This document shows, piece after piece, positions 17,838 through 27,908 of a stretch of 64,000 nt of DNA; position 1 is the first letter of the stretch; every line of letters begins with the position of its first letter. The DNA is from Salicibibacter cibi. Its GTDB lineage: Bacteria; Bacillota; Bacilli; Bacillales; Marinococcaceae. The stretch lies in the NCBI RefSeq assembly GCF_016495865.1, contig NZ_CP054706.1, forward strand, positions 3,720,001 to 3,784,000. The letters are read 5' to 3'. The notes under the pieces were generated by a model. That model was not told the DNA's origin and made no database searches. It saw only the letters and a list, made by a program, of their open reading frames with translations. The position numbers and the translations under genes are program-made.

Positions 17838-17889
17838 TAAAAATTACCCCTTGGAATAACGGTTTTAACGTTATCCTCAAGGGGTAATG
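17838..17889 (-). terminator. Intrinsic terminator after the NlpC/P60 gene
   Basis: On the minus strand ATTACCCCTTG and CAAGGGGTAAT pair, with an inner GGATAACG/CGTTATTCC helix, and are followed by TTTTT. Confidence 0.85.
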
Positions 17890-17916
17890 ATAACTAATCC
17901 ATTCTAATTGTGAAGC

Positions 17917-19182
17917 TTAGAGGCTCCCAGCTCCGATGTACTTGTCGCCCCAATAATGAGGGTCATCGATGCTATCGATCGTTACGCCGTTTGATGCACT
18001 CGCATGAATAAATTCACCATTTCCGATGTAGATACCCGCGTGGGATACACCGCCGCTAGTGTCAAAGAATACGAGATCGCCTTCGCTCGGATTCGATACG
18101 GATGTGCTCATGTTATACAGAGAAGATGTGTCTGCGCGATGATCAGGACCTTGTCCGTTTTGATCAAGCACGTAGTTGATGAATCCGCTGCAATCAAATG
18201 CGCCTGGACCGTTAGCGCCATAACTATATGGAGTTCCCATCTGTGCCATAGCAGTATCGATCACGCCGCTAGCGTCACCACCATTGTTATCAGTCGAGGC
18301 ACCATCGACGACTTCTTCGGTATTGTCTTCTTCATTTGTAGCGTTGTCGCTACCGGAATTCTCGGATTCACTGTTGCTTTCGTTCTCTGAGCTGCTTTCG
18401 CTTTCGGAACTGCTTTCTTCAGTGTTATTGCTCTCGGAAGCAGTGTCTTCAGTACTGCTTTCTTCAGTGTTGTTGTTCTCGGAAGTGTTGTCTTCAGTAC
18501 TGCTTTCTTCAGTGTTGTTGTTCTCGGAAGCAGTGTCTTCAGTGCTGCTTTCTTCAGATGAGTTATCTGATGAATTATCTTCGGAGTTATCATTGTTGCC
18601 GGTATTCTCACTTGGCTGTCCTTCAAGGGAGCTTAATGTTGCTGCTCCTGCTACTCCAAAGAAATTCCCCGCTTCTGAAGAAATGCCGTGATCTTGTTGA
18701 AAAGCTTTTACGGCACTTTCCGTTTGCGGACCGAAAATAGAATCGACATTACCGTCGTAGTATCCTAGATCTTGAAGTTGTGCCTGAAGATCACTTACGG
18801 CTTCACCAGTATCTCCATTGGACATGGAACTTGAATTTCCTTCGGAACTAGTGCTTTCACTAGTACTTTCATCTGAAGAAGAAGATTCTTCAAGTGAACC
18901 GATTGTTTGGGGCCCTGCAACCCCAAAGAAGTTCCCCGCTTCTGAAGAAATGCTATGATCTTCTTGATAAGCTTTTACAGCGCTTAGCGTTCTTGGACCG
19001 AACGTGGATCCTGTGGAACCTTCAAAGTACCCGAGATCTTTTAGTTCTGTTTGCAGTTCGTTTACGGAGTCATTTACGTCTCCTTCGGACATCGAATCTG
19101 CATCTACACTAAATGCGTCTGCTGCGTTTGGTGCGAATAGCAATCCTACTGCCACGACTGTACTTAAAGCATACTTTTTCAT
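17917..19182 (-). CDS. Secreted NlpC/P60 peptidoglycan endopeptidase with two PG-binding domains
   Basis: This is a 421-residue exported wall hydrolase. A signal peptide with an Ala-rich cleavage region (PNAADA) is followed by two PG_binding_1 domains (about 30-95 and 120-185), both ending in ISSEAGNFFGVAG. A Ser/Thr/Glu/Asn-rich linker comes next, with three 15-residue repeats of the form NNTEESSTEDTASEN. The C-terminal NlpC/P60 domain has Cys331 in FDCSGF, then His in SHAGIYIG and FIHASA. The enzyme should cleave D-Glu-to-diamino-acid bonds in wall peptides. The start is the ATG at 19182; there is no good close ribosome binding site (see the leader entry). A sigma-A-like promoter is at 19356-19384. 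Confidence 0.93.
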   Translation of the reverse strand: MKKYALSTVVAVGLLFAPNAADAFSVDADSMSEGDVNDSVNELQTELKDLGYFEGSTGSTFGPRTLSAVKAYQEDHSISSEAGNFFGVAGPQTIGSLEESSSSDESTSESTSSEGNSSSMSNGDTGEAVSDLQAQLQDLGYYDGNVDSIFGPQTESAVKAFQQDHGISSEAGNFFGVAGAATLSSLEGQPSENTGNNDNSEDNSSDNSSEESSTEDTASENNNTEESSTEDNTSENNNTEESSTEDTASESNNTEESSSESESSSENESNSESENSGSDNATNEEDNTEEVVDGASTDNNGGDASGVIDTAMAQMGTPYSYGANGPGAFDCSGFINYVLDQNGQGPDHRADTSSLYNMSTSVSNPSEGDLVFFDTSGGVSHAGIYIGNGEFIHASASNGVTIDSIDDPHYWGDKYIGAGSL

Positions 19183-19303
19183 AATGATATTCACTCATAT
19201 ATTGTTCGACATTTATTCATCCGTAACTGGTTTTTCATCGGTGGTAGATATGTACCAGATCTTTCTAAGACGAACGTACTAACTGAGTGAATCGTCACCT
19301 CCT
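19183..19303 (-). promoter_or_regulatory. Structured 5' leader with distant Shine-Dalgarno
   Basis: A perfect AGGAGGTG (19296-19303) lies 113 bases from the ATG at 19182. Between them ATTCACTCA (19284-19292) can pair fully with TGAGTGAAT (19189-19197). If that helix forms, only 3 + 6 = 9 bases remain between the Shine-Dalgarno and the start codon. An inner GTTCG/CGAAC helix (19271-19275 with 19204-19208) supports folding. The leader of the 3D-domain gene at 27186 has the same design. Confidence 0.65.
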
Positions 19304-19355: not shown

Positions 19356-19384
19356 ATTATAGATTCTAAACTTGGAAGTGACAA
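19356..19384 (-). promoter_or_regulatory. Sigma-A-type promoter of the NlpC/P60 gene
   Basis: On the minus strand TTGTCA (19379-19384) and TATAAT (19356-19361) are separated by exactly 17 bases. Transcription should begin near 19349, giving a leader of about 165 nt. Confidence 0.82.
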
Positions 19385-19416: not shown

Positions 19417-19716
19417 GTGGATAGACTATTATGCTATCCTACAGTTTTTTCAAAATTTAATAGATAGGCGTCATGAAGGGAATATTTGCATAGATGTGGT
19501 TTGATGTGGAAATGGCTCGAGTTCTGTCGTAATCTTTTTGTAATCTTTTTGTTAAAGCCCAAATGCTTCTTTTCAATAGAAAAGACTTATCCTCAAGAAT
19601 CACGAACAGCGAAAATCAAAGCCCTTTTTATCCTATCATCCGAACAATTTATACTTACTGATAGTATTAAAAAAACTCAAGGACCATTTTCGCTGTCCTT
19701 GAGCTTTACTTTAGTA

Positions 19717-27043: not shown

Positions 27044-27072
27044 TTGAATGATGAAACTACTGCTACTATAAT
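27044..27072 (+). promoter_or_regulatory. Sigma-A-type promoter of the 3D-domain gene
   Basis: TTGAAT (27044-27049), 17-base spacer, TATAAT (27067-27072). The predicted transcript begins near 27080, just upstream of AGGAGGTG, giving a leader of about 105 nt. Confidence 0.75.
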
Positions 27073-27096: not shown

Positions 27097-27185
27097 AGGA
27101 GGTGTACATTCACTTCATCACGTACCTTTAGACGTAAGCAATTGGTCAGCAAGTTTGCGATACGTAGATGAGTGAATGAATCTTT
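27097..27185 (+). promoter_or_regulatory. Structured 5' leader with distant Shine-Dalgarno
   Basis: AGGAGGTG at 27097-27104 is 81 bases from the ATG at 27186. An interrupted 17-bp helix can form between 27107-27124 (CATTCACTTCATCACGTA) and 27161-27178 (TACGTAGATGAGTGAATG), with one bulged T on each strand. It leaves 2 + 7 = 9 bases between Shine-Dalgarno and start, the same as in the leader at 19183-19303. Confidence 0.7.
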
Positions 27186-27908
27186 ATGAAAAAATATATA
27201 TTAAGTGTAGTGAGCGCAGTAGTAGCCGTAGGTTTGATTTCAATACCCAACGAAGCAGATGCTGCATTCAGTGAATCATATCAGATAACGAGTGGAGATG
27301 TAGGTGAAGACGTCAACGAGCTTCAACAAACATTAAAAGAACAAGGTTATTTTAGTGGATCAACCGGGAATACCTTTGGGCCGAGAACGTTAAGTGCAGT
27401 TCAAGATTTTCAACTAGATAACGGGATTTCTTCTCCCGAAGGCAACTTCTATGGTGTAACAGGCCCTGAAACGCAAGAGGTGCTTAATAATATAACTCCC
27501 GACGAATCTACCGATAATGCCGATGGAAACAACGAAACAACTGAAGACGAAGGAACGGAAGAAACAGCAACCGAAGAAGACACTGGATCTGAAGAAGGTT
27601 CTACTTCAGAAACGGATGGCGATAGCTTTACAATGGAAGCAACTGCATACACGGCGGATTGTGAAGGCTGCTCCGGGGTAACAGCTACAGGAATCGATCT
27701 TAATAATGATCCTAACGCAAACGTTGTAGCGGTTGACCCTAGTGTTATTGAACTCGGCTCAACGGTACATGTTGAAGGATATGGCGAAGCAATTGCCGGA
27801 GATGTCGGCGGAGACATCAACGGAGAAAGAATTGACCTTCACGTTCCAACTACAGAAGAAGCCCTGAACTTCGGAAACCAAGATGTTGAAGTAACGGTGC
27901 TGGATTAA
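27186..27908 (+). CDS. Secreted PG-binding and 3D-domain protein (YocH-like)
   Basis: This is a 240-residue exported protein. A signal peptide ends near NEADA. One PG_binding_1 domain follows (about 32-95, ending FYGVTGPETQEVL), then an acidic Thr/Glu linker (about 100-145) and a C-terminal 3D domain. The 3D domain shows EATAYTA, AVDPSVIELGS, GEAIAGDVGGDINGERIDLH, with the three family Asp residues. 3D domains are lytic-transglycosylase-like and occur in YocH and resuscitation-type proteins, so a role in wall turnover is likely. Its first domain and leader RNA resemble those of the NlpC/P60 gene at 17917-19182, pointing to a shared origin. Confidence 0.92.
   Translation: MKKYILSVVSAVVAVGLISIPNEADAAFSESYQITSGDVGEDVNELQQTLKEQGYFSGSTGNTFGPRTLSAVQDFQLDNGISSPEGNFYGVTGPETQEVLNNITPDESTDNADGNNETTEDEGTEETATEEDTGSEEGSTSETDGDSFTMEATAYTADCEGCSGVTATGIDLNNDPNANVVAVDPSVIELGSTVHVEGYGEAIAGDVGGDINGERIDLHVPTTEEALNFGNQDVEVTVLD

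Follow-up and report, generated by a model that had tools for sequence, protein, structure and literature searches.

How a wall hydrolase gene can be translated when its strong Shine-Dalgarno (SD) sequence lies more than 100 nt upstream of the start codon is the question raised by a locus of Salicibibacter cibi. The gene lies on the minus strand of the window, which is the whole stretch of 64,000 nt that was analyzed (contig NZ_CP054706.1, positions 3,720,001 to 3,784,000). The gene and its leader contain the following features:

17917..19182, minus strand: exported NlpC/P60 wall hydrolase with two PG_binding_1 domains, 421 aa (open reading frame and domain search)
19183..19188, minus strand: helix-to-start spacer ATCATT, followed by the ATG at 19182-19180 (sequence)
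19189..19197, minus strand: 3' arm of the predicted bridging helix, TGAGTGAAT (sequence)
19204..19208, minus strand: 3' strand of a predicted inner helix, CGAAC (RNAalifold, six group A leaders)
19271..19275, minus strand: 5' strand of the inner helix, GTTCG (RNAalifold, six group A leaders)
19284..19292, minus strand: 5' arm of the predicted bridging helix, ATTCACTCA, a perfect complement of TGAGTGAAT (sequence)
19296..19303, minus strand: remote SD, AGGAGGTG (predicted anti-SD duplex -15.9 kcal/mol)
19356..19384, minus strand: predicted sigma-A-like promoter TTGTCA-N17-TATAAT (11/12 matches; consensus match only)

The export of the 421-aa protein was called from its signal-peptide-like N-terminus. 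The predicted promoter ends at 19356, approximately 53 nt ahead of the remote SD, and a sigma-A-like promoter in this position makes transcription of the leader plausible. On the minus strand, AGGAGGTG is separated from the ATG by 113 nt, the trinucleotide ACG (19295-19293) sits between AGGAGGTG and the 5' arm, and the two arms enclose a loop of 86 nt (19283-19198). The original prediction had described this layout, and its positions, the 113-nt gap and a residual spacing of 3 + 6 nt across the helix base all proved correct when the sequence was re-read. Moreover, a TGA immediately precedes the in-frame GTG at 19194, and therefore no longer N-terminus of the gene extends back to the SD.

Two other elements were noticed around the gene. 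A terminator-like inverted repeat, TTACCCCTTG...CAAGGGGTAA, lies 3' of it (approximately 17840-17893) and is present in L002 too. In addition, CGTAAT-N5-TGTAAT occurs at 19528-19544 on the plus strand, and a similar sequence lies upstream of the G002 orthologue in L003; the window copy resembles a WalR box.

At least 7 Watson-Crick pairs in the allowed geometry were found for 12 of 2038 SD-ATG pairs in first-order Markov sequence and for 5 of 456 real SD-ATG pairs in the window, 2 of the 5 beginning genes longer than 200 aa, namely the 19182 gene and a gene at 27186. Taken singly, the window hairpin is only modestly improbable, and it is the relatives that carry the weight. The second gene of the window is arranged as follows:

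27044..27072, plus strand: predicted sigma-A-like promoter TTGAAT-N17-TATAAT (10/12 matches; consensus match only)
27097..27104, plus strand: remote SD, AGGAGGTG (sequence)
27107..27124, plus strand: 5' arm CATTCACTTCATCACGTA, 18 nt (duplex prediction, scan)
27161..27178, plus strand: 3' arm TACGTAGATGAGTGAATG, 18 nt (duplex prediction, scan)
27186..27908, plus strand: exported PG_binding_1 + 3D-domain wall protein, 240 aa, with a putative bridged SD

A third such gene of the same genome, L081 (G000:C1:2638650-2639200), also encodes a PG_binding_1 + 3D-domain protein and has the arms CATTTAC/GTAAATG.

Relatives were collected by protein searches of 61 genomes and of 29 genomes of the same family, the paralogues sharing the signal peptide and the first PG_binding domain. 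From the N-terminal matches listed, 80 upstream stretches were taken, which together with the window gene gave 81 leaders of an exported wall-protein family; the matches left out of this set include G024:C6:300860, G013:C7:74610, G028:C6:99672, G019:C1:2605594, G010:C1:486671 and G027:C13:56003. Start codons were chosen by a scripted rule, which found none for L209 and L210. The relatives include Geomicrobium halophilum, Natribacillus halophilus (Bacillaceae in the NCBI taxonomy), Marinococcus and Sinobaca, halophiles, as their names suggest.

A word rule divided the 81 leaders into 39 with a single GGRGG at 42-175 nt upstream but nothing SD-like close to the start, 21 with an SD-like word nearby, 18 in which another in-frame start is served by an SD, and 3 that fell into no class. 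Three leaders were added by eye to the 39, which gave a bridged set of 42. One of them, L189, has only a local AGGA (-4.0 kcal/mol) and carries perfect TAATCC/GGATTA arms; the other two, L105 and L107 (group G), have a remote SD with arms, yet also a local AGAGG and a residual of 19, and this group, which was kept as doubtful, may be unbridged. Among the matches listed, clear bridged cases occurred in 13 of the 29 family genomes and in 6 of 12 genera, and the doubtful pair adds one genus. An order-level search outside the family gave 24 loci, 23 of them from other genera and one (L250) a Sinobaca gene already counted as L196; of the 23, 21 have an ordinary SD, two of them ahead of a TTG, and no clear start is evident in L236 and L252.

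Short hairpins at a distance of 21-30 nt in other genera (L108, L202, L203, L212, L215, L216, L222 and others) were rejected as candidates, because an in-frame TTG or GTG at normal SD spacing explains them. In L108, L202, L203, L212 and L215, GGGAGG (GGGGGG in L203) is followed at normal spacing by an in-frame TTG, 21 nt ahead of the ATG; this TTG is probably the true start and would give a short N-terminal extension, of the MFETT type in L108, L202 and L212. In the third G011 paralogue, L190, a 5-bp CACCT/AGGTG hairpin separates the ATG from a GGGAGG just 28 nt away. GGRGG is also carried by non-bridged leaders with an ordinary or alternative start, at 42-182 nt in L098, L100, L102, L212 and L220 and at 30 nt in L219, L221, L223 and L224.

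The lack of a local SD is near-general in the bridged set. A local anti-SD energy of -6.5 or lower was reached by 3 of the 42 leaders (L080, with the word GGGTGA at -8.3 kcal/mol, and the doubtful L105 and L107), compared with 86% in a sample of 439 own-genome genes. Furthermore, an in-frame stop codon lies between the remote SD and the ATG in 38 of the 42, the exceptions being L080, L198, L199 and L205. Ten paralogues in the genus Marinococcus, which have weak to strong local SDs, showed no GGRGG at 30-200 nt upstream. An 18-nt leader motif of bridged group C recurs in eight of these ten. The sequence AAGGYAAGTAAWCATATA, at a near-constant 84-91 nt before the ATG, is common to the group C and local-SD leaders of this genus (L075, L076, L078, L079 and L083; L084, L086, L088, L090-L092, L094 and L096) and is possibly a second conserved RNA or DNA element.

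The presence of paired arms was observed throughout the set: in all 42 leaders, duplex prediction paired the bases that follow the remote SD with those that precede the start codon. A duplex of -11 kcal/mol or lower was predicted for 41 of the 42, compared with 21 (17%) of the 122 chance GGRGG sites that precede ordinary starts in a 464-kb sample of the own genome. The arms were sorted into approximately 14 groups, which were lettered by hand and, being groups of paralogues, are not fully independent. Four arm groups are of the TTYAC type, and unrelated letters occur in others, as illustrated by the arms TTTTCGTCT/AGACGAAAA (L074) and TTGCGTTA/TAACGCAA (L201) in Sinobaca, TTCGCC/GGCGAA in Marinococcus (L199), and, in G011, TAATCC/GGATTA followed by TTTTATAAC/GTTATAAAA (L189) and TTCCTGGTTTGTAAC/GTTATAAATCAGGGA (L188).

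Moreover, the arms are specific to their own partners. For 14 representatives, one per arm group and with doubtful group G among them, own partners gave a mean of -15.25 kcal/mol versus -7.7 (sd 0.92) for permuted partners, and none of 2000 permutations reached the observed value. Four sets of misplaced-window controls (two on the 42 leaders and two on 24 long ones) had means of -2.8 to -7.4 kcal/mol. The value of -11 kcal/mol was reached by 10.9% of 1206 cross pairs between unlike arm types, compared with 97.5% of 40 own pairs with a gap above 60 nt. Within single ortholog groups there is too little variation to demonstrate covariation; one base pair of group B is C-G, U-G or U-A in different leaders, and shuffles reached the observed pair-count score in 410 of 500 cases for group B and in 66 of 500 for group Q. 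Outside the own genus, a leader DNA search gave just short weak matches (best E 0.0019), and two weak matches, G006:C44 and G007:C3, fall in orthologous leaders. Exact TTCACT-arm patterns were found at 1 and 7 places in the 29 genomes, with 0 for reversed-pattern controls; such patterns miss most members because the arms differ.

The raw distance from GGRGG to the ATG was 112 ± 33 nt (range 42-175) in the 42 leaders, and the residual with the helix left out, also counted from GGRGG, was 12.0 ± 2.6 nt (range 5-19), a value that varies with helix trimming (5 or 10 nt for L074). This residual is divided into 4.8 ± 1.4 nt on the SD side and 7.1 ± 1.6 nt on the ATG side. Ordinary ATG genes of the own genome that have a GGAGG showed a spacing of 8.35 ± 1.87 nt (n = 97; sought within 19 nt only), so the bridged residual is somewhat longer than ordinary spacing, even before the width of the helix is added, and is near the 11 nt of T4 gene 25.

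The geometry by itself is neither specific nor rare by chance. A looser scan of geometry without homology matched 35 of 560 SD-ATG pairs over the 464 kb from the own genome, and 33 of 452 over 400 kb of Sinobaca, a sample chosen to include known members, each scan covering approximately 12% of its genome. Most of the matches concern internal starts of genes whose strong SD is situated elsewhere. Among matches without any strong local SD, the wall-protein family accounted for 2 of 4 in the own genome and for 3 of 5 in Sinobaca (where one gene contributes two of the five through two starts), and the non-family matches were short-armed or had doubtful starts. The case for bridging is made by the missing local SDs and the matched arms, not by the geometry, and over the 12% or so of each genome that was scanned, the combination of this layout with a missing local SD seems to belong to the wall-protein gene family and not to the genome at large.

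The comparison of the 42 leaders, through their arms, own-partner fit and residual, gives strong support to the view that the distant SD is brought to working distance by a helix. The original prediction had named an absence of covariation and of a constant residual among homologues as what would speak against it; the comparison did not refute it, although the residual, at 12 ± 2.6 nt, is not strictly constant. Judged from sequence, the 19182 leader is, with a probability of approximately 0.8, a bridged (accommodated) ribosome-binding site of the T4 gene 25/38 kind, chromosomal, longer and family-wide. In this arrangement, the anti-SD of the 30S subunit would pair with AGGAGGTG, and the helix just downstream of the SD would remain folded and project from the mRNA path. 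The AUG would thereby lie approximately 10-14 nt beyond GGAGG across the helix base, which would allow initiation despite the linear 113 nt. Selection would retain the helix, neither its letters nor its loop; both paralogues and orthologues have seen their arms repeatedly replaced, and there is little variation in the few bases that flank the foot of the helix. We infer that the helix exists in vivo, that the 30S subunit uses it unmelted and that translation depends on it.

Folding predictions are relevant to this reading and to its rivals. The expected number of bridging pairs in the ensemble was at least 5.9 in 40 of the 42 leaders, and the ensemble preferred another fold in L071 (1.7 bridging pairs) and L073 (0.1). 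In minimum free energy (MFE) folds of 20 bare leaders, the bridge was missing from L073 and L097. In the same 20 folds weak extra pairs often touched the SD, with GGUG-tail pairs in several groups and GGAGGU paired with AUCUUU in 4 of the 5 group B leaders; in the ensembles, the mean accessibility of AGGAGG was just 0.49 (49% unpaired). These features could suggest sequestration, that is, an extended helix that masks the SD by pairing its GGUG with a UCAUU-like tail, so that folding is the off state, to be relieved by some signal; the SD may also pair with the 5' arm in the TTCAC groups. However, the SD-tail pairing is scarcely stronger than that of ordinary spacers (-1.3 versus -0.8 kcal/mol), and the pairing of the SD with the 5' arm was noticed by eye, in the TTCAC groups only. 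Once opened, moreover, the SD would still be 42-175 nt away from its AUG, and 39 of the 42 leaders offer no local alternative; we consider sequestration unlikely.

In Bacillus, STAB-SD sequences are strong SDs situated far from the start codon and near the 5' end, and in this respect the bridged leaders are like them; STAB-SDs are not known to have paired arms or a spacing rule. The original prediction had offered as its alternative that AGGAGGTG is an RNA-stabilizing element of this type, with the weak local GAGTG as the true initiation site. Such an element would, near the 5' end, bind the 30S subunit or block 5' exonuclease and in this way stabilize the mRNA. The predicted promoters, which put approximately 50 nt between the -10 box and the SD for the 19182 gene and approximately 25 nt for the 27186 gene, agree with such a role, and GAGTG precedes the ATG in 13 of the 42 leaders, the window gene included. 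The other 29 lack it, and the alternative does not generalize; by a count made by eye, GAGTG is present in 6 of 6 group A, 3 of 5 group B and 4 of 5 group C leaders and in no other group. Stabilization predicts neither matched arms nor a narrow spacing at the helix base, and the separate local initiation site that it requires is wanting, with no SD-like local word by the rule in 39 of the 42. In addition, the ten Marinococcus-genus paralogues with local SDs do without a remote SD. This explanation is very improbable.

Less probable still is that the remote SD serves a leader peptide or upstream open reading frame acting through coupling or attenuation: in the window, an AUU 5 nt after AGGAGG would open a 33-codon frame (ORF 19191-19298) that ends 8 nt before the ATG, but this frame, read by hand, stops early in G002, the AUU is replaced by UUU in group C and by CUU in group D, and an ATG, GTG or TTG 4-13 nt after the remote SD occurs in only 2 of the 42 leaders, with frames of 1-2 aa, so that no leader peptide fits and the candidate was rejected. 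A known riboswitch was ruled out by the Rfam scan, which gave no match over the 19182 leader up to E = 5, its two matches (both E = 4) lying elsewhere.

The proposal that the loop acts as a switch responding to a ligand, temperature or a protein found no support. The loops, of approximately 5 to more than 100 nt, differ from group to group, and Natribacillus L080 retains the SD and helix around a loop of approximately 5 nt; this lack of conservation and the missing Rfam match over the leader do not fit a riboswitch. The comparison of leaders and loops gave no sign of a ligand site. A further idea, less likely than not, is that the bridging helix is a splint that serves as a regulatory gate. 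Certain states of salt, temperature or the ribosome might let the weak outer pairs or competing folds prevail, upon which the SD and AUG would part and hydrolase production would stop; the whole family in halophilic Bacillaceae would then need the splint in order to be translated.

The bridged leaders can be compared with known systems. In Escherichia coli thrS, the hairpin lies upstream of the SD, whereas here it lies between the SD and the AUG. As described in PMC3936740, the 30S subunit accommodates a long hairpin at thrS and standby sites without unfolding it. For T4 gene 25, the review PMC3014915 states that a hairpin between the SD and AUG cuts the spacing from 27 to 11 nt, for gene 38 from 22 to 5 nt, and that destabilizing the hairpin reduces initiation. 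The gene 25 leader, which served as a yardstick, consists of GAGG, CTCAAAG-AGTT-CTTTGAG, 8 nt and ATG, and the bridged leaders have the same succession of a remote SD, a hairpin filling the gap, a functional residual spacing and the ATG. The structure is likewise conserved among relatives, as is evident from the 14 arm groups and the permutation result. In T4, however, a small hairpin precedes single phage genes, whereas the present cases form a chromosomal multigene family with gaps of 42-175 nt and replaced arms. In the E. coli polyamine modulon (OppA, RMF and CpxR), mRNA structure has been proposed, according to the review PMC4191411, to shift a distant SD nearer to the AUG; there, a bulged stem in the initiation region answers spermidine, whereas here a long-range helix encloses the whole gap. 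A paper on phage codons does no more than cite the T4 work (PMC4631060). A search of the open-access literature found no bacterial chromosomal gene family with bridged ribosome-binding sites.

If the present reading is true, bridged initiation would be a lasting mode of starting chromosomal genes and not a phage curiosity, with inserts far longer than those of T4. Gene finders and ribosome-binding-site models that view approximately 20 nt upstream of a start would misread bridged genes. The natural arms, which are matched, replaced and in one case short-looped, would provide a ready test set for the tolerance of the 30S subunit to a folded insert between the SD and the P site, and they would also bear on the question of why the wall hydrolases of halophiles retain so costly a leader.
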